Source of the DNA: Desulfococcaceae bacterium HSG9
Lineage (GTDB): Bacteria; Desulfobacterota; Desulfobacteria; Desulfobacterales; JAUCGF01
NCBI GenBank assembly: GCA_030378005.1
Contig: JAUCGF010000085.1
Span: forward strand, 1-64,000
Direction: 5' to 3'
Length of the DNA: 64,000 bases
Every line of letters begins with the position of its first letter. Within the stretch, counting starts at the first letter, position 1. Positions 18,536 through 50,035 of the stretch are shown here, in pieces. The notes under the pieces were generated by a model, which was given only the letters and a program-made list of their open reading frames with translations, was not told the DNA's origin and ran no database searches. The translations under genes were made by a program, and so were the position numbers.

Positions 18536-19351
18536 ATGACATTGCCGCTTTACAAAAAACGCACCACTCTGAAACTTGTGCCAGGTGAAATTCATTTATG
18601 GCTTGTTTTTTCCGATGAAATCCGGGAAGCATCGTTATTTAAAGCTTATAATGATTTGATGACTTCAGAAGAAAGGGTGCGCGGACGTCGATTCCGGTTT
18701 GCCAGGCATCAACGTCAATTTGCTGTTACACGCGCGCTGGTGCGTACGACATTATCCCGTTACAGTCATATCAAACCTCATCAATGGCGATTTGACAAAA
18801 ATCCTTATGGCCGTCCTGAAATTAAAACATCTCAAAATTCACTTGGCCTGCAATTCAACCTGTCTCACACAAACGGCCTTATTGTGTGTGCGGTAACCCA
18901 AGGCGCGTCAAAAGCTGAATGCGCTATCGGGGTTGATGTTGAAAGTATCGAACGCAAAGGCGCTACCATTGAAATTGCCGACCGTTTTTTTTCAAATCTG
19001 GAATCCGCCGACTTGCGAAATATTCCGGAAAAGGACAGGCGCTTACGTTTTTTTGATTATTGGACGTTAAAAGAAGCTTACATTAAAGCCTGTGGCATGG
19101 GTTTGAGCATACCGCTGAAACAATTCAGTTTCCATATCACCCACCAGGAACCCCTATCGATTTCATTTGCACCTGAACTGAAAGATGATCCGCGATGCTG
19201 GCAATTCTGGCTTCTCAACCCGACGCAACATCATCGAGTTGCGCTGGCTGTTCGACTTAAACAGGAGTTGGTCTGCCAACTCATTTTGAAAAAGGTTACA
19301 CCTCTGTCAACAGAGCAATCGTTCGAATGCCCATTTTGGGGCGGTGTCTGA
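18536..19351 (+). CDS. Sfp-type 4'-phosphopantetheinyl transferase
   Basis: Transfers the phosphopantetheine arm of coenzyme A to acyl carrier domains. Characteristic blocks are FRFARHQRQFAVTRALVR (about 52-69), FNLSHTNGL (about 109-117), the metal-binding IGVDVE (about 133-138) and FDYWTLKEAYIKACGMGLSIPL (about 179-200). The 271-residue length is normal. Sfp-type enzymes typically serve PKS, NRPS and PUFA synthases, and the KS-CLF-AT-DH synthase lies 5.7 kb downstream on the same strand, although this window has no visible ACP domain for it to act on. Confidence 0.93.
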   Translation: MTLPLYKKRTTLKLVPGEIHLWLVFSDEIREASLFKAYNDLMTSEERVRGRRFRFARHQRQFAVTRALVRTTLSRYSHIKPHQWRFDKNPYGRPEIKTSQNSLGLQFNLSHTNGLIVCAVTQGASKAECAIGVDVESIERKGATIEIADRFFSNLESADLRNIPEKDRRLRFFDYWTLKEAYIKACGMGLSIPLKQFSFHITHQEPLSISFAPELKDDPRCWQFWLLNPTQHHRVALAVRLKQELVCQLILKKVTPLSTEQSFECPFWGGV

Positions 19352-25022: not shown

Positions 25023-28000
25023 ATGAAAAAAAAAGCACCCATTGCCATCGTGGCGATGTCCGGCGTATTTCCCGGCGCGCCGGACTTAGCGACCTTTTGG
25101 CATAATATTATAAATAAGGTCAATACGGTTTGCGAATCATCCCTGAAACGATGGGGCGCGCCGCCTGAAACCATGTACAGACCGGTTCCGACGCCTGATA
25201 TGGCAATTTCCAAACGCGCCTGTCTGATTCGTAACTTCACATTTGACCCCTGCGGATTTGACATTGCTCCCGACTTGTTAAAAGACCTGGACCTGTTGTA
25301 TCATCTCGTGCTGCACGCCGGACGGGAAGCTATGGCCGGCCGCAAGGGCGATGAATCAGTTAAAATGCGCACAGGCGTTACCTTAGCCGCAATGGCATTG
25401 CCTACGGATTCCGCTTCTTTGCTCGCCAGAGAAGTGTTAGGCCGTGCTTTTGAAGCCCGCCTTTTAAACCAAAAACCATCCGAAACGAATGCAAGACTTT
25501 CTCGAACGCAGTGTTTGTCCGCTAAAGTGACCAGCCTGCCGGGCGCGTTATTGGCTCAGGCGTTGGGGCTTGGCGGCGGCAGTTTAACTTTGGATGCGGC
25601 TTGCGCTTCTTCTTTGTACGCGGTCAAACTGGCCTGTGATGAGCTGCACGCCGGGCGCGCGGACGCCATGCTGGCCGGCGGTGTGTCTCGCCCGGACTGC
25701 CTTTACACCCAAGTCGGGTTCAGTCAACTCAAAGCGCTTTCGCCTTCAGGGCGTTGCGCTCCTTTTGATGTGACCGCTGACGGTTTGGTGGTGGGGGAAG
25801 GCGTGGGGCTGCTGGTTTTAAAACGGCTTGATGACGCTTTACGCGATCAGGACAAAATTTTGGGCTTGATTCGGGGAATCGGTTTATCGAACGACATGCA
25901 GGGCAACTTGCTGGCTCCGGACAGCGAAGGCCAGCAGCGCGCGCTGCGTTACGCATATCAGGCCGCCGGATGGTCGCCTTCAGATGTTGATTTAATCGAA
26001 TGCCACGGCACCGGAACGCCATTGGGAGACGTTACCGAATTGCGCAGTTTACGTGAACTTTGGGGGGCTGACGGATGGAGCGAGGGACAATGCGCTATCG
26101 GTTCAGTCAAATCCATGATCGGACATCTTTTAACCGGCGCAGGCGCGGCCGGGCTGATCAAAATATTGCTGGCACTTCAACCTCCGGACGATAAAACCGC
26201 TCAGTTGCCGCCCTCTTTGCATTTTGACCGTGCGCCCAAAGACAGCCCGCTGCATGGAAGCCCGTTCAAAGTTCAATGTGAAACCCGGCCCTGGAACCGC
26301 CGCAACGACCAAACCCCGCGACGAGCGGCGATCAATGCTTTCGGTTTTGGCGGAATTAACGCCCATCTGTTAATAGAAGAATTCATGGCAAATGGGGAAT
26401 GCGGAATGGGGAATGCGGAGTTCAGAATGCGGAATTCCAAATTCCGAATTCCGAATTCCGAATTCCAACAAATTGCGATTGTGGGCATGGAAACGGTTTT
26501 CGGTCAGTTGACTTCGTTGAAACAATTTCAGGAGGCTGTTTTTAATGGCCGCACAGCAATCGGCAAGCGGCCGCCCCAAAGATGGCGCGGCAGTGATGCG
26601 CTGGCACGCTTTTTAATGGAAGATACGGAACTTTACGGCAGTTTTATGGAGGAAGTGGCGCTTGCAATCGGCGAATTTCACATTCCGCCCAACGAAATCC
26701 CCGATATTTTGGTTCAACATCTTCTGATGCTCAAAGTATGCGCGCAGGCAATGCGTGACGCCGGTTTGCCGTTGCGCGCCAACCGTCCTGATATGGGCGT
26801 TATCATCGGCCTTGAATTTGATTATGAAGCCACCGATTTTCATCTGCGCTGGGATATGCCCAATCATATCGAAACCTGGCTTAAACAGAGCGATTTGCAA
26901 TTGAGTGACACTGCCAAAGCGGATTGGCTTGAAAAACTGAAAGACGCAATCGGGCCTCCTCTGACCCATGCCCGCACATTGAACGCTTTACCGAGCATTG
27001 CGGCCAGTCGGATTGCACGGGAATTTCGTCTCGGCGGCCCTGGTTTTGTGGTTTCATGCGAAGCCGCATCAGGACTGCGGGCGCTGGAAATTGGCGTGCG
27101 CGCCCTGCAAAATGGCGAAATGGATACGGTTTTGATTGGCGCGGTGGATCTGACAGGCGATGTTCGCAATCTGATTATGACGGATAAGCTAAATCCGTTT
27201 AGCCGTTCTGACCAAATCCGTCCGTTTGATCAGGCGGCCGATGGCACGCTTCCGGGCGAAGGAGCCGTTGCAATGGTTCTGATGCCCCTTGACCGGGCTT
27301 TAAAAGATGGCCATCGGATTTATGCTACGATTAAGGGCATCGGTGCCGCATCCGGCCCAATTGGGAATTTAGAATCAGGAATTCGGAATTCCACTGATGC
27401 GTATCAACACGCTTTCAAGCGAGCGGTTCGGGACGCTGACGTTTCAGCATCAGCGATCAGTTATTTAGAAACACACGGAAGCGGTCTGGAATTGGGAGTT
27501 GGAAATGCGGAATGTGGAATTCCGCACGTAGCAATTGGAACTGTCGAACCGATTATCGGACATACCGGTGCGGCGGCAGGATTGGCGTCGCTGGCCAAAA
27601 CCGCACTTTGTTTGTATCATCAAATTATACCGCCTCTGCCCGGTTATGTCACACCGGCAGACAAGGCTTGGGCAAACGGAGCTTTTTTTATGCCTCAAGC
27701 GCCTCAGTACTGGATACGCGACCGCAATCAAGGCCCTCGTCATGCGGCTGTCAACGCTTTTACATCCGATGGCAATTATTCAAGTGTGATTCTGGAAGGG
27801 TACGAAGCAGATCAACGGGCGGATGAGCGTAATGAACTTAAAAAACCGCTTGGGGATATGGACGCGGGCCTTTTCGTAATCAGCGGTGCCGACCAAGATG
27901 AGTTGCTATCGGAGCTTGATCGGTTTGAACAGTTTCTTGCCGAGCGCCTTTCCGCGGATTTGCCATTAGAATCGGTCGCCCGTAACTGGTATCAGCGCAA

Positions 28001-31000
28001 CCGCTCCCAAACAGATCGGCAAGAAGTTGTCACCATCGTGGCGGCTGATCACCAGAAACTTCGTCAACGGGTCAATAACGCCCGCCGAACCGTTCTATCC
28101 GGTGTTCGCGCTTTGATGAGCGCCGGCGGAGTCGCTTACAACCCTCTTCCGCTTGGGAAAAAGGGAGAAATCGCTTTTGTCTTTCCCGGCTCCGGCAATC
28201 ACTATGTTGGCATGGGACGCGAAATCGGCGCTGTCTGGCCCGAAATTCTTAAAAAAATTGACGCCGGCACAGAGCGATTAAAAAGCCAAATGCGGCCGCA
28301 TTGCTATGTTCCCTGGCGCACCGATTGGCGTCCGGGATGGGAAAAAGACGCCTATTCTGAAATTATCGCCGATCCTTTGAATACAATTTTCGGACAAGTG
28401 GTGCATGGCGGCGTGATGGCCGGCCTGATGAATCATTTCGCGATTCAACCTTCGGCTGTTATCGGATACAGTCTGGGTGAATCAGCCGGTCTTTTCGCAT
28501 CAGGCGCATGGCCGGAGCGTGGCGTAATGTTGAAACGGATGCTGGATACGGATTTATTCACCACGCAGTTGGCAGGCCCTTGCCTGGCGGCGCGCCAGGC
28601 GTGGAATATACCCGAACATGAGGCGGTTGATTGGCGTGTGGCGTTGGTTAACCGCTCCGCTGATACGGTTGGTGATGCGATTCGTGATTTGGCAACCGCC
28701 CGATTGTTAATTATCAACACACCCGAACAATGCGTTATTGGTGGTATGCGCCGGGATATTGAAGCCGCAATCCAAAAACTGAAATGCGAAGCGGTGTTTT
28801 TGGACGGCGTTGTTACGGTTCATTGTGATGCGGCCCAACCTGTGGCCGATGCTTATCGGGAGCTGCATCATTTTCCGGTTACGCCGCCGCCGGGAATCCG
28901 TTATTACAGTTGCGCCTGGGGAGAGCCGTACAAGTTGACTTCGGCTAACGCCGCTGATTCTATTCGGGATCAGGCTACCGGCGGATTTGATTTTCCCAAA
29001 CTGATTCAGCGGGCTTATCACGATGGCGTCCGCATTTTTGTGGAAATGGGTCCTCATAACTCTTGTACGCGCATGATTACAAAAATTTTAGGAGATCAAC
29101 CTTTTATGGCCGTGTCCGCCGATATGCGCGGCGAAAGCGATTATCTGACGGTTTTAAAATGTCTCGGCGCGTTGATTGCCGAAGGTGTGCCTGCAAACAT
29201 GGAAAGCCTTGAAAAATTATACGGCGATGAAATACGTCCCCAAGCAACCGAAATCAGCGCAACATCCGCAAAGGGAAAAATAATCACGCGCATATTAGGC
29301 GGGGCTGCACCTGAACCGATGCTGCCTGAAATTGCCTCAAATGTAACACCAAAAGACGTTCCAAGCACTCCCAATGTAACGCGGAAGGCCGTTCCGCGTA
29401 CTGAAACCTCCGCATTACAAAACGATCTGATCGAATCCCAAACAGCCAGTATGAACGCCACCGCCCAGGCGCATCGTCAGTTTCTAAAATTTTCCGCTGA
29501 TGCCGGACGTTCTTATGCCGATGCTTTTGCCTTGCAAAATCGCTTGCTTGCACATCAAATTCAAAATGGGGAATACGAAATTCAGAATTCAGAATTCCCC
29601 ATTCCCCATTCGGCTCCGGCGTTTACCCGTGAACAATGTATGGAATTCGCTATCGGATCGGTAGCCAACGTTCTTGGCCCTGATTTTGCTGTGGTTGATA
29701 CTTACGATGTGCGGGTGCGTCTGCCGGATGAACCGTTGATGCTGGCGGATCGCATCATTTCGGTACAAGGGGAAAAAAGATCGTTGACATCGGGCTGCGT
29801 TATCACTGAGCATGACGTACTCCCTGATGCCTGGTACTTGGATGGCTGTCGTGCGCCGGTGTGTATCGCTGTGGAAGCCGGCCAGGCCGATCTGTTTCTG
29901 TGTTCCTATTTGGGTATCGATCATGTTGTCAAAGGCCGCAGAGCTTATCGTTTATTAGACGCCAAAGTTAAATTTCATCGCGGTTTGCCTCGTCCGGGGG
30001 AAGTGATTCGGTATGAAATACATATCCAAAAGTTCGTGCGCCAGGGCGACACTTACCTGTTTTTCTTTAATTTTGAAGGGCATATTGATGGCGCGCCGCT
30101 GATTACCATGACAGATGGATGCGCCGGTTTTTTTACCAAAGAAGAAGTTACGCGCGCCGGCGGTTTGGTTCTGACTGCCGCTGAAACCGAGCCGCAACCG
30201 GTCGATAAAAATTATAAATGGCTATCGCCCATGCCAACGGAGCCGGAATCTTATGACGATACCCAAATTGACGCGCTCAGGCGAGGTGATTTGGCATCCT
30301 GTTTCGGTTCCGAATTTGATGGCGTTAAACCGGCGGCGTCAATACGTCTGCCCGGCGGACGCATGAAATTGATTGACCGGGTGCTTCGTTTAGATGCCCG
30401 CGGCGGCCGTTTCGGACTCGGCCAGATTTGCGCTGAAGCGGATATTCATCCGGATGATTGGTTTTTGACCTGCCATTTTATCGACGACATGGTGATGCCC
30501 GGAACGCTGATGTATGAATGCTGCGCCCATACGCTCCGGGTGTTTCTATGGCGTCTCGGATGGGTGACGGATAAGCCCGGCGTCTGTTATGAACCGGTTT
30601 GCGAAGTTCAAAGCGTGCTGAAATGTCGCGGCCCGGTAACGCCATCCACTAAAAAAGTGCTTTATCAGGTGGATATCCGTGAAATCGGGACACAGCCGGA
30701 ACCATACATGATTGCCGATGCGCTTATGTTTGTTGATGATCTGCCGATGGTGGCGTTTAAAGATATGTCGATGCAAATGAGCGGTGTGACGCATGATGAA
30801 TTGGAAAATTTTTGGAAAAAGAAATTGCCAGCGCAGACCATCAGGCATGATCAGGCTCCCCTTTTTGACCGTCATCACATTTTGGAATTTGCCCAAGGAA
30901 AGCCATCGGCCGCATTTGGCAAACTTTATGAACCTTTTGACACCAAATTTATCGCCCGTCTGCCGCGACCGCCTTATGCTTTTCTTGATCGCATCGTGGC

Positions 31001-31970
31001 GATTGAACCGCAAGCCTGGGTTTTGAAACCGGACGGATGGATTGAAGCCGAATACGACATCCCGCCTTCAGAATGGTACTTTGCCGCCGAACGTTCATCC
31101 ATTATGCCGTATTGCGTTTTGTTGGAAATCGCTTTGCAGCCCTGTGGCTGGTTGGCGGCTTATCTCGGCTCGGCCCTTAAAATAGACCGGCCGCTGCGAT
31201 TCCGTAATTTGGGAGGCAAAGCGGTTTTGCATCAACTGGTCACTGCTGAATCCGGAACGGTTACGATGCGTGTTCGTTTGACCAAAGTAGCCGAAGCCGG
31301 TGCCATGATTATTGAACACTTTGATTTTAAAGTGCTGCAAGGGCAAAATGAGATATATACCGGAAACACCTATTTCGGCTATTTCACCCAGGAAGCGCTG
31401 GCTGAACAGGCCGGTATTCGGGGCGCATCCGAAAAAGCGTATTCGCCGAATGAACTTCTGGCATCTGACATTCAACATCGAACATTGAATTCGGAAGGAG
31501 ATACGAACGGCCTGGCCATGCCTGATAAAACGCTGCGCATGATTGACACGATTGATGTTTACCAGCCCCAAGGCGGCCCGCATAAACTCGGCTTTATTCG
31601 AGGGATAAAACAGGTTGATCCGGAAGAGTGGTTTTTCAAAGCTCATTTTTACCAGGACCCGGTATGTCCGGGTTCATTGGGCATCGAGTCATTTATTCAA
31701 TTACTGAAATATATCGCGCGTGAACGTTGGCCGCACCTGATTGATAACAGCCGTTTTGAGATGCTTACCCTGGAGAGCCATGAATGGGTTTATCGCGGCC
31801 AGATTATTCAAACAAACCGAAAAATCGAAGTTGAAGCGGTTGTTACCGAAGTTCGCGAAACACCCGTCCCCACACTGTTGGCTGAAGGCTATTTAAAAGT
31901 GGATGGTTTGTTTATTTATCAGATGGATAATTTTGGATTGCGGGTTGTGCCTCACGAAAATATTAATTAA
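25023..31970 (+). CDS. KS-CLF-AT-DH polyunsaturated-fatty-acid-type synthase (Pfa3/PfaC-like)
   Basis: 2315 residues, cytoplasmic. KS 1-450 has the full triad: Cys194 (DAACASS), His328 (HGTGTPLGD), His368 (KSMIGHL). A second KS-like domain (about 484-940) has Ala681 in the Cys position (VSCEAASG) and HGSG, so it is a chain-length-factor-type partner. The acyltransferase (about 1045-1390) has FVFPGSGNHYVGMG and nucleophile Ser1150 (GYSLGES). Four FabA-like hot-dog units follow: units 2 and 4 keep His1818/Glu1832 (CHFIDDMVMPGTLMYE) and His2208/Glu2222 (AHFYQDPVCPGSLGIE); units 1 (about 1600) and 3 (about 2015) lack the His and are structural. The order matches myxobacterial Pfa3 without its terminal acyltransferase. 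No ACP, KR or ER is present here, so PfaA- and ER-like partners must be elsewhere. Four in-frame GAATTC repeats interrupt it. Confidence 0.9.
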   Translation: MKKKAPIAIVAMSGVFPGAPDLATFWHNIINKVNTVCESSLKRWGAPPETMYRPVPTPDMAISKRACLIRNFTFDPCGFDIAPDLLKDLDLLYHLVLHAGREAMAGRKGDESVKMRTGVTLAAMALPTDSASLLAREVLGRAFEARLLNQKPSETNARLSRTQCLSAKVTSLPGALLAQALGLGGGSLTLDAACASSLYAVKLACDELHAGRADAMLAGGVSRPDCLYTQVGFSQLKALSPSGRCAPFDVTADGLVVGEGVGLLVLKRLDDALRDQDKILGLIRGIGLSNDMQGNLLAPDSEGQQRALRYAYQAAGWSPSDVDLIECHGTGTPLGDVTELRSLRELWGADGWSEGQCAIGSVKSMIGHLLTGAGAAGLIKILLALQPPDDKTAQLPPSLHFDRAPKDSPLHGSPFKVQCETRPWNRRNDQTPRRAAINAFGFGGINAHLLIEEFMANGECGMGNAEFRMRNSKFRIPNSEFQQIAIVGMETVFGQLTSLKQFQEAVFNGRTAIGKRPPQRWRGSDALARFLMEDTELYGSFMEEVALAIGEFHIPPNEIPDILVQHLLMLKVCAQAMRDAGLPLRANRPDMGVIIGLEFDYEATDFHLRWDMPNHIETWLKQSDLQLSDTAKADWLEKLKDAIGPPLTHARTLNALPSIAASRIAREFRLGGPGFVVSCEAASGLRALEIGVRALQNGEMDTVLIGAVDLTGDVRNLIMTDKLNPFSRSDQIRPFDQAADGTLPGEGAVAMVLMPLDRALKDGHRIYATIKGIGAASGPIGNLESGIRNSTDAYQHAFKRAVRDADVSASAISYLETHGSGLELGVGNAECGIPHVAIGTVEPIIGHTGAAAGLASLAKTALCLYHQIIPPLPGYVTPADKAWANGAFFMPQAPQYWIRDRNQGPRHAAVNAFTSDGNYSSVILEGYEADQRADERNELKKPLGDMDAGLFVISGADQDELLSELDRFEQFLAERLSADLPLESVARNWYQRNRSQTDRQEVVTIVAADHQKLRQRVNNARRTVLSGVRALMSAGGVAYNPLPLGKKGEIAFVFPGSGNHYVGMGREIGAVWPEILKKIDAGTERLKSQMRPHCYVPWRTDWRPGWEKDAYSEIIADPLNTIFGQVVHGGVMAGLMNHFAIQPSAVIGYSLGESAGLFASGAWPERGVMLKRMLDTDLFTTQLAGPCLAARQAWNIPEHEAVDWRVALVNRSADTVGDAIRDLATARLLIINTPEQCVIGGMRRDIEAAIQKLKCEAVFLDGVVTVHCDAAQPVADAYRELHHFPVTPPPGIRYYSCAWGEPYKLTSANAADSIRDQATGGFDFPKLIQRAYHDGVRIFVEMGPHNSCTRMITKILGDQPFMAVSADMRGESDYLTVLKCLGALIAEGVPANMESLEKLYGDEIRPQATEISATSAKGKIITRILGGAAPEPMLPEIASNVTPKDVPSTPNVTRKAVPRTETSALQNDLIESQTASMNATAQAHRQFLKFSADAGRSYADAFALQNRLLAHQIQNGEYEIQNSEFPIPHSAPAFTREQCMEFAIGSVANVLGPDFAVVDTYDVRVRLPDEPLMLADRIISVQGEKRSLTSGCVITEHDVLPDAWYLDGCRAPVCIAVEAGQADLFLCSYLGIDHVVKGRRAYRLLDAKVKFHRGLPRPGEVIRYEIHIQKFVRQGDTYLFFFNFEGHIDGAPLITMTDGCAGFFTKEEVTRAGGLVLTAAETEPQPVDKNYKWLSPMPTEPESYDDTQIDALRRGDLASCFGSEFDGVKPAASIRLPGGRMKLIDRVLRLDARGGRFGLGQICAEADIHPDDWFLTCHFIDDMVMPGTLMYECCAHTLRVFLWRLGWVTDKPGVCYEPVCEVQSVLKCRGPVTPSTKKVLYQVDIREIGTQPEPYMIADALMFVDDLPMVAFKDMSMQMSGVTHDELENFWKKKLPAQTIRHDQAPLFDRHHILEFAQGKPSAAFGKLYEPFDTKFIARLPRPPYAFLDRIVAIEPQAWVLKPDGWIEAEYDIPPSEWYFAAERSSIMPYCVLLEIALQPCGWLAAYLGSALKIDRPLRFRNLGGKAVLHQLVTAESGTVTMRVRLTKVAEAGAMIIEHFDFKVLQGQNEIYTGNTYFGYFTQEALAEQAGIRGASEKAYSPNELLASDIQHRTLNSEGDTNGLAMPDKTLRMIDTIDVYQPQGGPHKLGFIRGIKQVDPEEWFFKAHFYQDPVCPGSLGIESFIQLLKYIARERWPHLIDNSRFEMLTLESHEWVYRGQIIQTNRKIEVEAVVTEVRETPVPTLLAEGYLKVDGLFIYQMDNFGLRVVPHENIN
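26387..26465. repeat. GAATTC/GGAATG repeat in frame, KS-CLF linker
   Basis: Units of GGGGAATGCGGAATG and AATTCCGAATTCCG translated as a Asn/Glu/Phe/Arg-rich peptide (codons 455-482) between the KS and the chain-length-factor domain. It falls at a domain boundary, so it may be tolerated as a linker. Confidence 0.9.
27358..27396. repeat. GAATTC repeat in frame, inside chain-length-factor domain (site 1)
   Basis: TTGGGAATTTAGAATCAGGAATTCGGAATTCC, translated as IGNLESGIRNS at about residues 780-790, between the IKGIG strand and the AYQHAFKRA helix, a surface loop in ketosynthases. Confidence 0.85.
27487..27530. repeat. GAATTC repeat in frame, inside chain-length-factor domain (site 2)
   Basis: GAATTGGGAGTTGGAAATGCGG and AATGTGGAATTCCGC, translated as LELGVGNAECGIPH at about 822-835. 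The distance between the two catalytic-position His motifs (His818 and His847) is 29 residues against 40 in the KS of the same protein, so the repeat stands in place of part of the fold rather than being added to it. Confidence 0.85.
29565..29614. repeat. GAATTC repeat in frame, AT-DH linker
   Basis: AATGGGGAATACG, AATTCAGAATTC and CCCCATTCCCCATTC, translated as QNGEYEIQNSEFPIPHS at about 1515-1531 in the linker between the acyltransferase and the first hot-dog unit. Outer arms GGGGAAT and ATTCCCC are complementary. Confidence 0.88.
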
Positions 31971-46511: not shown

Positions 46512-47393
46512 TCAACCATCCGTTTTGATGGCGATACCATCTTCGCTCGCTAATTTTTTTAGTTGTTCAAGCATTTCCGAAGGGGCACCATAAGACATCT
46601 CGTTCACGATTTGCAGATAAATCTGTCTGCGTTTCTCAGGGTTATCCAGATCAGCTTTTTCTTTACGCAACAAACGGCTGATTTCATATACTTGATGATA
46701 GGATGGAAAGCTGATTTCGGCTTTATTAAATGCGGTTATTGCCTTATCAAACTCTCCTGATAAAAGATAGGTAAAACCTTGGGCCTCAAATTTTGATGCC
46801 GCCTTGAAATCTTTGGCCACTTTTGGAACGGTTTCTTCTTTTTTAGAACTATCATCGACAACTTGCTCTGAATCTGTTTTTTGGGGACTATCATCGGCAA
46901 CTTGCTCCGAATCCGTTTTTGGGGGACTATCATCGGCAACTTGCTCCGAATCCGTTTTTGGGGGACTATCATCGGCAACTTGCTTTGGATCCGTTTTCAA
47001 AGCATCGGAATTTTCAATCGCCGGTTTTTCAGCCACTTCTTCGGTCAGAGGCGTTTTTAAGGTTGTTCTTTGCAAATCGTCCGCGACAACTTTTTTAATA
47101 GTTGTACGAACCTGCTCATTGTTTTCAATTTGGTCAACAATCTGGGCAGCCATCTTCTTAGCACTGAGTTTGCTATCCGTATGTTTGGAAAAATGTAGGG
47201 CCTGGGCTGTAGCAACTTTTTGTATATCACTATCCAAACGTTGATAAAAATAGTAGCCGATTCCTAGTATAACAACAAGCAATAGAAAAAATTGGATAAT
47301 AAACTGCGCCCGATTTTTGATATTACGCCTTAAATCAGATTGCTCTAGTTGATAGATACGGTCTGAAACAGAGTTAAATTGATCTTCTGACAT
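46512..47393 (-). CDS. Single-pass membrane protein with Asp/Ser/Lys repeat region
   Basis: 293 residues, family unknown. A cytoplasmic N-terminus (SDRIYQLEQSDLRRNIKNR), a transmembrane segment at about 28-48, a helical periplasmic or extracellular part to about 115, then four copies of a 13-residue unit KTDSEQVADDSPP (about 131-182), and a C-terminal helical part (about 195-293) of TPR-like character (FEAQGFTYLLSGEFDKAITAFNKAE). The repeat is encoded by a 39-base minisatellite. The start has a good GGAGG site. Confidence 0.75.
   Translation of the reverse strand: MSEDQFNSVSDRIYQLEQSDLRRNIKNRAQFIIQFFLLLVVILGIGYYFYQRLDSDIQKVATAQALHFSKHTDSKLSAKKMAAQIVDQIENNEQVRTTIKKVVADDLQRTTLKTPLTEEVAEKPAIENSDALKTDPKQVADDSPPKTDSEQVADDSPPKTDSEQVADDSPQKTDSEQVVDDSSKKEETVPKVAKDFKAASKFEAQGFTYLLSGEFDKAITAFNKAEISFPSYHQVYEISRLLRKEKADLDNPEKRRQIYLQIVNEMSYGAPSEMLEQLKKLASEDGIAIKTDG
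46847..47002. repeat. 39-bp minisatellite inside a coding region
   Basis: Four head-to-tail units starting at 46847, 46886, 46925 and 46964. Units 2 and 3 are identical (GACTATCATCGGCAACTTGC, then TCCGAATCCGTTTTTGGGG); units 1 and 4 carry several changes. The unit is a multiple of three, so copy-number changes keep the frame. Confidence 0.95.
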
Positions 47394-48253: not shown

Positions 48254-50035
48254 ATGTTTACCACTCTTTTCCACACAACCCAAAGTACGTTCACAACATT
48301 ACTTTATTTTGCGTTGGCTATATTTGCCATCGGTCTAATCTACAGATTTTATACATGGATTAGCCGGCCGATTGGCGTTTTGTCCGCTGGAATCACAACC
48401 TCACAACGTTTTGCGGCGGCCTTTAAAGGAATCGGGGGCACCATTTTCAGCCATAAAATCGGATTGCTTATCAAATCCTTCTTTCTGGATGTTTTATTAC
48501 AGCAAAAAATATTAAAGCAGGATTGGCTGCGCTGGTTGATGCATAGCTTTATTTTTGCCGGTTTTATGTTGCTGCTGATTTTTCATGCGTTGGATGAAAC
48601 CATTACGGAGGCGCTTTTCAGCGACTATTATTCCACTGTGAATCCTTTTTTCTTTTTGAGGGACCTGTTTGGCCTGATGGTTCTGATTGGATTGGGAATC
48701 GCCGTTTATCGCCGCCTTATTCTTAAAGTTCCCCGTTTAAGCACTGACGGACGCGATCATTACGCGATCATTATTCTGGCCGTGATTATGATTAGCGGCG
48801 TTTTTCTGGAAGCGACCAAAATCACGTCCTATTCTGATTTTGAAAGGATGGCGGAAGATTTTGCAGGCATGGAAGATGAAGAAGAAATTGCCACATTAGA
48901 ACAGTTTTGGGTAGCCGAGTACGGACTTGTTTCACCCAATGTGAGCGGGCCTTTTGACAGCGATGTCATTGACGAAGGACGGGAACTGAATGCAGACAAT
49001 TGCGCCGCCTGCCATGCGCCCGCCCAATATGCCTTTGTCGGATATACATTCGCAAAAATGATGAGCTCCTTTGCCATAGGAATAGATCGCAACAATGGTG
49101 TTGAAATTTTGTATTATATTCACTTTATCGCCTGTTTCATCGGTTTGGCCTATCTGCCTTTCAGTAAAATGTTTCATATCATCGCCACTCCTGTAAGCCT
49201 TTTGGTCAACGCGGTTGCAGATGATGAAACCGCACTTCCGGCCAATATCGTTACGCGGCAAATTATGGAATTGGACGCCTGCACACATTGTGGAACATGC
49301 AGCCTGACCTGCTCGTCTATGATGGCGGCTGAAGCGCTGAATAATAAATATATTCTGCCATCGGAAAAAATGGCCTGCCTGAAAAATTTTGTCGCTGATA
49401 AAAATCCGATGCCTGAAACGGTCAAAGCAATTCGTGAAGGTGTTTATCTTTGCACCAACTGCGACCGCTGTACCGTTGTGTGTCCTTCGGGAATCAATTT
49501 ACGCGCTTTATGGTTTAATGTTCGCGAAGACCTGGTTCAAAAAAATGCGCCGGAACCGTTGATGATTTCGCCCTTTTCTTTTGTACGCGCCTTACGCAAC
49601 ACCAACGGCCATCAAGACACACCGTCAGCAGAAGCCTACACCGTGCCAATTGCAAAAACCCGACAAGCGGTTGCCGGTCGATTTGATATTTTGGCAGACC
49701 CGCATCGTACAGTGGAATTGAAACAAGATGCCTCCACTTATGTTAAACAAATCGCCGATGCGGAAACCTTTACCCACTGTTTTGGCTGCCAGAACTGCAC
49801 CACTATATGTCCGGTTGTAAATAATTATGAACACCCGGAAAAAAAATTGGGATTGCTGCCGCATCAGATTATGTGCAGCCTGGGTTTAGGTCAAACCGAA
49901 ATGGCATCAGGCGCACCCATGATCTGGGATTGTCTGACTTGTTACCAATGTCAGGAACATTGTCCCCAAAATGTAGCTGTTACGGATTTATTTTATACTC
50001 TGAAAAATTTGGCGGCAGCTAATTACGAAGTCTGA
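48254..50035 (+). CDS. Membrane Fe-S oxidoreductase: NarI/HdrE-like cytochrome b with c-heme motif fused to two HdrC-like ferredoxin domains
   Basis: 593 residues. Residues 1-320 are a membrane part of the nitrate-reductase-gamma type with about five segments (about 14-34, 88-110, 133-152, 170-190, 285-305) and His residues in them for b-hemes. A c-type heme motif CAACH (250-254) lies in a loop. Two dicluster ferredoxin regions follow: Cys343/346/349/353 with Cys400/403/406/410, and Cys509/512/515/519 with Cys560/563/566/570, each set with a CP-type end. So electrons could pass between quinone and four [4Fe-4S] clusters. Related single units (HdrC, QmoC, TmcC, DsrM) work in sulfate reducers; this fusion with a c-heme is unusual. 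No CCG (HdrB) domain is present and no partner gene is adjacent. ATG has AAAGGAG upstream. Confidence 0.85.
   Translation: MFTTLFHTTQSTFTTLLYFALAIFAIGLIYRFYTWISRPIGVLSAGITTSQRFAAAFKGIGGTIFSHKIGLLIKSFFLDVLLQQKILKQDWLRWLMHSFIFAGFMLLLIFHALDETITEALFSDYYSTVNPFFFLRDLFGLMVLIGLGIAVYRRLILKVPRLSTDGRDHYAIIILAVIMISGVFLEATKITSYSDFERMAEDFAGMEDEEEIATLEQFWVAEYGLVSPNVSGPFDSDVIDEGRELNADNCAACHAPAQYAFVGYTFAKMMSSFAIGIDRNNGVEILYYIHFIACFIGLAYLPFSKMFHIIATPVSLLVNAVADDETALPANIVTRQIMELDACTHCGTCSLTCSSMMAAEALNNKYILPSEKMACLKNFVADKNPMPETVKAIREGVYLCTNCDRCTVVCPSGINLRALWFNVREDLVQKNAPEPLMISPFSFVRALRNTNGHQDTPSAEAYTVPIAKTRQAVAGRFDILADPHRTVELKQDASTYVKQIADAETFTHCFGCQNCTTICPVVNNYEHPEKKLGLLPHQIMCSLGLGQTEMASGAPMIWDCLTCYQCQEHCPQNVAVTDLFYTLKNLAAANYEV

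Follow-up and report, generated by a model that had tools for sequence, protein, structure and literature searches.

The gene at positions 48,254 to 50,035 of the window (the whole 64,000-nucleotide stretch of a Desulfococcaceae bacterium HSG9 contig that was analysed) probably, with about three chances in four, encodes a membrane-integrated HdrC-like subunit that links an HdrA/HdrB flavin complex to menaquinone and/or a periplasmic heme c, with partners that are unlinked to it in the window's genus. The gene is an open reading frame of 593 amino acids on the plus strand, which begins with ATG and contains zero internal stops. It comprises the following parts:

48254..50035 (+): gene for the putative membrane-integrated HdrC-like protein, 593 aa; dN/dS 0.12 versus locus L081.
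48266..49243 (+): NarI-type membrane domain, residues 5-330, by Pfam Nitrate_red_gam and the NarI 1y5i_C alignment.
48827..49096 (+): residues 192-281, the loop that joins membrane helices 4 and 5 and is predicted to be periplasmic; helices from the structural model.
48848..48850 (+): Met199, which may be the distal heme c ligand; conserved in 94 of 95 distinct members.
49001..49015 (+): CAACH (residues 250-254), the predicted attachment site for heme c; CXXCH is conserved in 94 of the 95.
49256..49543 (+): SdhB-like first dicluster domain (residues 335-430), with eight conserved Cys; Fer4_8 at 339-414.
49697..50026 (+): second dicluster domain, residues 482-591, HdrC-like by sequence and structure matches, with eight conserved Cys.

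The preliminary description of this DNA, made from its letters, had placed a NarI-type part, a CAACH motif and two diclusters in one chain, an architecture that is borne out by the intact reading frame, by Pfam and by conservation. The Nitrate_red_gam match (E 3e-8, 34.0 bits against a cut-off of 22.9), together with the conserved H97, H111, H290 and H308, identifies the membrane domain as NarI-type. Fer4_8, Fer4_10, Fer4_9 and Fer4_17 were all above their Pfam cut-offs, with residues 339-414 and 507-574 as the best stretches, and the CCG domain PF02754 was absent from the protein at E up to 0.5. The best NCBIfam models were those of QmoC (NF038018, 57.2 bits against a cut-off of 300) and HdrC (TIGR03290, 54.1 bits against 160). 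Both scores are below the curated thresholds, and because of the latter we call the protein 'HdrC-like' and not HdrC proper.

An AlphaFold model based on 61 sequences (set A2: 52 of the 80 named loci described below, eight further loci and the window; L086 was excluded, as its range contained a stop) had a mean pLDDT of 80.9 and a pTM of 0.75, with a pLDDT of about 50 in the linker near residues 431-460, and five membrane helices can be read from it. Among the VIA-align matches, whose list spans mainly residues 10-432 and outside which other families may still match, the best was EtfD (Z 24.6, rmsd 3.7 over 346 residues), followed by HdrC over residues 482-591 (Z 11.2), NarI 1y5i_C over residues 5-330 (Z 10.2, within the range that possibly reflects a common helical-bundle arrangement) and SdhB-type proteins over the first dicluster (Z about 8). 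EtfD was also the only Foldseek match at E up to 0.001; weak rows were returned for HdrC (E 0.07 to 0.4) and NarI (E 1.4 to 4.8). The C-terminal domain matched HdrC chains with an E of 8.6e-10 by sequence and 4.7e-18 with the family profile, so that sequence, profile and structure all place it with HdrC-type dicluster domains.

We analysed conservation of the cofactor sites in 95 distinct sequences (the query plus 94 others). H97 and H111 were present in all 95, H290 in 93 and H308 in 94, the remainder being gaps. Four conserved histidines in a bundle of NarI type point to two b hemes, of which these residues are the likely ligands. The 16 cluster cysteines were kept in 92-94 of the 95 (94 for the first dicluster, 92-93 for the second) and are the predicted sites for four [4Fe-4S] clusters. 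According to the preliminary description, poor conservation of the CAACH loop in close homologues would count against its proposal; C250, C253 and H254 are, however, found in 94 of the 95 members, and the sole row without CXXCH, L073, lacks the whole heme c loop. Since a CXXCH arises fairly often by chance (in 328 of 20,000 shuffles of the window protein), the argument for heme c rests on this conservation and not on the motif alone. The CAACH loop carries 4 K+R versus 18 D+E, and the loops predicted to be inside carry 7 versus 2 (residues 38-90) and 2 versus 1 (156-165). From this charge pattern and the NarI match, heme c is predicted to face the periplasm and the clusters the cytoplasm, although the charge evidence is mixed: the stretch after the last membrane helix (304-333), with 1 K+R versus 3 D+E, does not support the topology. 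The organism's own genome has two PF01578 cytochrome c assembly genes, above the cut-off. Both heme b and heme c are predicted cofactors of the window protein. The link to quinone that the preliminary description proposed draws its support from two homologies, to NarI and to EtfD.

We then consider the distribution of the family. Matches at E up to 1e-20 occur in 20 of 58 genomes of the same order (own genome included), and matches at E up to 1e-100 in 42 of 297 genomes of a phylum-wide draw. A tblastn scan of named genomes (E up to 1e-3) gave 440 stretches encoding a relative; the analysis kept the best 80. By title, these best 80 of 440 are mostly Desulfobacterales, Desulfobacteraceae and Deltaproteobacteria bins, and they also include two Syntrophaceae and bins titled Eth-SRB1 and Eth-SRB2, which we take to be the partners of ethane-oxidising archaea. 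A family ORF longer than 350 aa was found in 79 of the 80, and CXXCH in all of these 79; L137, which is split into several frames, was left out of the ORF-based count.

Of the named loci (the best 80 of 440), 78 have 300 nt or more downstream of the family gene, the two cut by contig ends being outside this count, and in 75 of these 78 an HdrB-like gene follows directly. An HdrB neighbour was defined by tblastn at E up to 1e-15, on the same strand and with a start between -200 and +1200 nt. Once duplicate and additional loci are counted, the ratio is 93 of 98, with seven more cut by contig ends; several loci are one contig under two names. The three named loci without HdrB next to the gene are L081, from the window's genus, L137, with its broken frames, and L154, whose copy is unlinked and whose genome holds a linked one too, L169. 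HdrA was found in the same run, by the ORF method, in 60 of the 73 HdrB-bearing named loci (best 80 of 440), and 12 of the other 13 have 3,000 nt or less left. In L123, HdrB was masked by long antisense ORFs in ORF calling, and was revealed by the HdrB search and tblastn. The preliminary description had suggested looking for the same fusion and for conserved neighbours in other genomes, and both are there. Its remark that no HdrB is adjacent is correct for the window's genus and does not extend to most relatives, whose HdrB and HdrA neighbours answer the question of the electron acceptor that it had left open.

The neighbours were identified by the best NCBIfam or Pfam match of seed proteins. 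All NCBIfam scores were under the curated cut-offs: HdrB TIGR03288 gave 263 bits (cut-off 345), HdrA2 995 (1100) and VhuD 138 (215), and ShyB, ShyC, MetF, NuoE and NuoF were also best models. Two Pfam models were above their cut-offs, CCG with 86 bits (cut-off 20.6) and DUF5981, the MetV domain, with 129 (23), and the HdrA-like neighbour has flavoprotein and Fer4 domains. Further downstream in the 73 loci are FlxC, FlxB and FlxA together (nine loci), NuoE and NuoF (seven), a molybdopterin formate-dehydrogenase-like gene (five), an FrhB-like gene (two), or MvhD and/or an FlxC-type gene without the rest (six); 44 loci, many on short contigs, have no such module. The name FlxC is our presumptive one for its seed protein, which no NCBIfam model matched at 1e-5. 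Two loci outside the 80, L072:2341-10406 and L044:80-6854, have a membrane HdrC-like gene, HdrB, HdrA, MvhD, MetV and MetF in one run (the contig end cuts the first gene of L044, where the identities are by cluster membership only). This run is a candidate for a quinone-linked methylene-THF reductase complex.

We noted an apparent in-frame TGA in the hdrA partner of L167 (L167:2647-2649), L087, L093, L095 and L101. The site aligns with a Cys of L057, in the motif NDCAM-x-I(I/L)SPK, and the TGA-bearing hdrA partner may be a selenoprotein.

In the window the gene stands alone: its neighbours are all encoded on the opposite strand, with a repeat-containing protein on the upstream side and, downstream, a ThiS-like small protein (21.7 bits, slightly below the Pfam cut-off of 22.5) and a glutamate dehydrogenase (identified by eye). 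The upstream protein (46512-47393, minus strand) has repeated units around DSEQVADDSP, and by eye a homologue lies beside the gene in L055 too. Elsewhere in the window, we recognized by eye a 2315-aa ORF resembling a polyketide or polyunsaturated fatty acid synthase (25023-31970) and a phosphopantetheinyl-transferase-like ORF (18536-19351).

Despite its isolation the gene is under purifying selection, as indicated by a dN/dS of 0.12 over 593 codons in comparison with L081 of the same genus; the value is lowest within the gene in the HdrC-like part (0.06, with a dS there of 1.07). Such selection on a solo gene argues against a decaying remnant. In the tree, the window and L081 form a pair within a 30-row clade (100/100), the other 28 rows of which have HdrB next to the gene, and departure from the operon in the window's genus thus looks derived. 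In the sister genome G001, contig C130 encodes an hdrB 54% identical to that of L061 and an hdrA 72% identical to that of L057, unlinked to the window-type gene. Directly after this hdrB-hdrA pair (L167:5790-6941) is a membrane protein resembling QmoC (106 bits, under the cut-off of 300), with cluster cysteines that look degenerate, and which may have replaced the earlier membrane partner of hdrBA. Cognate HdrB and HdrA are missing from the window's own assembly, which is 94.02% complete: the closest HdrB there has 30% identity and the closest HdrA 50%, and a search with C130 gave only HdrA-like stretches of up to 79% and short near-end pieces, with none in hdrB. The association with HdrB and HdrA is seen, then, in the operons of the family, is absent at the window's locus and is unlinked in the sister genome. 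Adjacency within one genome can mislead, as the partner became visible only in relatives.

It is conceivable, but in our judgement rather unlikely, that the subunit of the window's genus no longer works with its ancestral HdrBA and now connects other cytoplasmic complexes of Hdr type to the membrane, the HdrABC sets on C45, C116 and C164 and the HdrA-like set on C19 of the own genome being possible partners. The absence of cognate HdrBA from the assembly is consistent with this, as are seven other contigs with long HdrA-like frames (E 2.9e-237 or better), the selection just described, which is strongest in the HdrC-like part, and the different membrane neighbour of hdrBA in G001. However, the C45, C116 and C164 sets each own, by eye, a soluble HdrC (with partial qmoC-model matches there), G001 retains hdrBA, and in an assembly of 94% completeness hdrBA may just be missing.

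The preliminary description regarded the protein as a single-chain quinone-to-ferredoxin protein. A solo gene with every cluster and heme site in one chain would suit a self-contained quinone:ferredoxin oxidoreductase, yet the relatives show a subunit set with HdrB and HdrA, the former next door in nearly all named loci with room, and the C-terminus is HdrC-like, with the HdrC of solved HdrABC complexes as its best match. We consider this assignment improbable. In our analysis nothing was found that points to ferredoxin as a direct partner of the window chain; if ferredoxin takes part, it would do so at HdrA.

EMO are related ETF:menaquinone oxidoreductases, and the query shares with the EtfD/EMO/HdrF group a membrane cytochrome b part and a dicluster in one chain. 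In EtfD of Mycobacterium smegmatis (9ojn), the best structural match, the membrane part likewise precedes the dicluster, and a relative (L066) has the same membrane half fused to CCG domains. According to PMC13083937, EtfD conducts electrons from its clusters via heme b to menaquinone, and has two C-terminal CCG domains and one b heme bound by His78/His241; HdrF of Desulfobacterium autotrophicum is outlined as having transmembrane, HdrC and HdrB domains (Strittmatter et al., PMC2702500). The query, in contrast, has four conserved histidines, a heme c loop and a second, HdrC-like dicluster, and lacks a CCG domain, for which reason membership in EtfD/HdrF was rejected. Two proteins of EtfD/HdrF type, next to etfBA-like genes (C91 and C172), were also recognized by eye in the own genome, and an ETF:menaquinone oxidoreductase function for the window protein is very improbable.

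Similarly remote is a QmoC-like function, from menaquinol to APS reductase. QmoC, like the query, has an HdrC-type dicluster and a membrane cytochrome b in one chain and is encoded with HdrA-like subunits, and a second paralogue, a fragment cut by the contig end (L043:11950-16819, G026:C11), lies behind AprA-like, AprB-like and HdrA2-like genes. QmoC, however, has the domains in reversed order and one dicluster; the reversed order and the low NF038018 score led us to reject QmoC membership, and the own genome has a separate qmoC (493 bits against the cut-off of 300), by eye inside the apr-qmo cluster.

The own genome encodes further membrane proteins of related make-up. A third NarI-dicluster-CCG protein (by eye) adjoins a protein with five CXXCH, and CXXCH is absent from this protein, from the two EtfD/HdrF-type proteins and from QmoC. 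A fifth membrane protein, on C197, has six CXXCH ahead of its NarI part. As these relatives differ in make-up, the window protein is not a copy of a standard part. On C197 (L045:5310-8328, G000:C197), the six-CXXCH NarI-type protein, a GcvH-like protein and a CCG/dicluster protein form a set that by eye adjoins lipoate-ligase-like and dehydrogenase E1-like genes; a lipoyl-linked Hdr-type system is possible. On contig C19 (G000:C19, L049) we saw by eye what may be a class II benzoyl-CoA reductase (Bam) gene set that includes HdrA-like and HdrC-like parts.

Two natural variants of the family bear on how its modules combine. In L073:5155-14860, the family member without the heme c loop is directly behind HmcA-HmcB-HmcC and ahead of HdrB-HdrA; HmcA (631 bits), HmcB and HmcC are all above their cut-offs. 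We read this as an external HmcA cytochrome module apparently swapped in for the built-in heme c as the periplasmic port. In L066:833-2983 (G006:C213), the membrane half and first dicluster are the same and CCG domains replace the HdrC-like end; small ORFs that cluster with a GcvH-like protein were seen on both sides. Both variants may be assembly errors.

In the mechanism that we favour, the subunit would stand in for the soluble HdrC of an HdrABC flavin complex. Its C-terminal HdrC-like dicluster would dock on the cytoplasmic HdrB/HdrA pair, and electrons would move between the HdrA flavin and the HdrC-like clusters and, via the other dicluster, to the two b hemes, which would pass them to menaquinone and/or to the covalent heme c on the periplasmic side. 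The feeders of HdrA, namely Flx or NuoEF (NAD(P)H), formate dehydrogenase or MetVF (methyl-tetrahydrofolate), would thereby be coupled to the quinone or cytochrome c pool. In the window's genus, the gene would work in trans with the unlinked hdrB-hdrA or with another HdrAB pair. The potential of menaquinone is near -75 mV. With NADH at -320 mV and methyl-THF at -200 mV, values given in the relevant part of PMC6895022, transfer from either to quinone would be downhill, and with NADH there would be spare drive for ferredoxin reduction at HdrA. For electrons to run the other way, inward from periplasmic cytochromes, membrane potential or confurcation would be required.

The HdrC subunits of HdrABC complexes, including the acetogen MetFV-HdrABC, are soluble. 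The query resembles HdrC of HdrABC and FlxABCD-HdrABC in its C-terminal 110 residues, by sequence and fold, and in the HdrB-like, HdrA-like and partly Flx-type neighbours of its relatives; it differs in tying the HdrC domain to a membrane b/c cytochrome, the HdrC chains in the PDB being of 183-191 aa. The likeness to acetogen MetFV-HdrABC lies in the operons of L072 and L044, which end in MvhD-MetV-MetF. In HmcE/HmcF, DsrMK and TmcBC, a NarI-type cytochrome b works with an FeS/CCG partner and periplasmic cytochromes c; these are separate subunits, the CCG partner is of DsrK/HdrD type, and the multiheme cytochromes c are proteins of their own. The claim of the preliminary description that such parts are separate subunits in sulfate reducers is too general, as QmoC is an HdrC-NarI fusion, which the own genome's copy shows, and EtfD fuses membrane, dicluster and CCG parts (PMC13083937); fused chains of this kind thus have precedents.

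An HdrABC complex has been proposed to link methylene-THF reductase to quinone in an acetate oxidiser (Keller et al., PMC6895022), and the portion of that paper containing the proposal names no membrane subunit for HdrABC. Parts of Murali et al. (PMC10553843) describe HdrABC beside metF and an Flx-Hdr, and, in HotSeep-1, an HdrA together with a heme c-binding protein that bears a CCG domain, which is a related idea with different parts. In the open-access papers searched we did not find a description of the fusion reported here; it may be mentioned in subscription papers or supplements.

To our knowledge, little is established about how electrons pass between the membrane and the HdrA complexes of sulfate reducers. 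A broader proposal, which we advance tentatively and hold at somewhat less than even odds, is that a bifurcating or confurcating membrane HdrABC occurs across Desulfobacterota, with a high-potential branch to menaquinone or to heme c and periplasmic cytochromes that replaces the soluble disulfide. If this is true, oxidation of NADH, formate or methyl-tetrahydrofolate at HdrA would be coupled directly to the respiratory chain, and in some species the MetVF variants would tie the complex to the Wood-Ljungdahl pathway. With its conserved operon, its predicted cofactor chain and an HmcABC variant that makes clear predictions, the family is a candidate for the membrane subunit of HdrABC.
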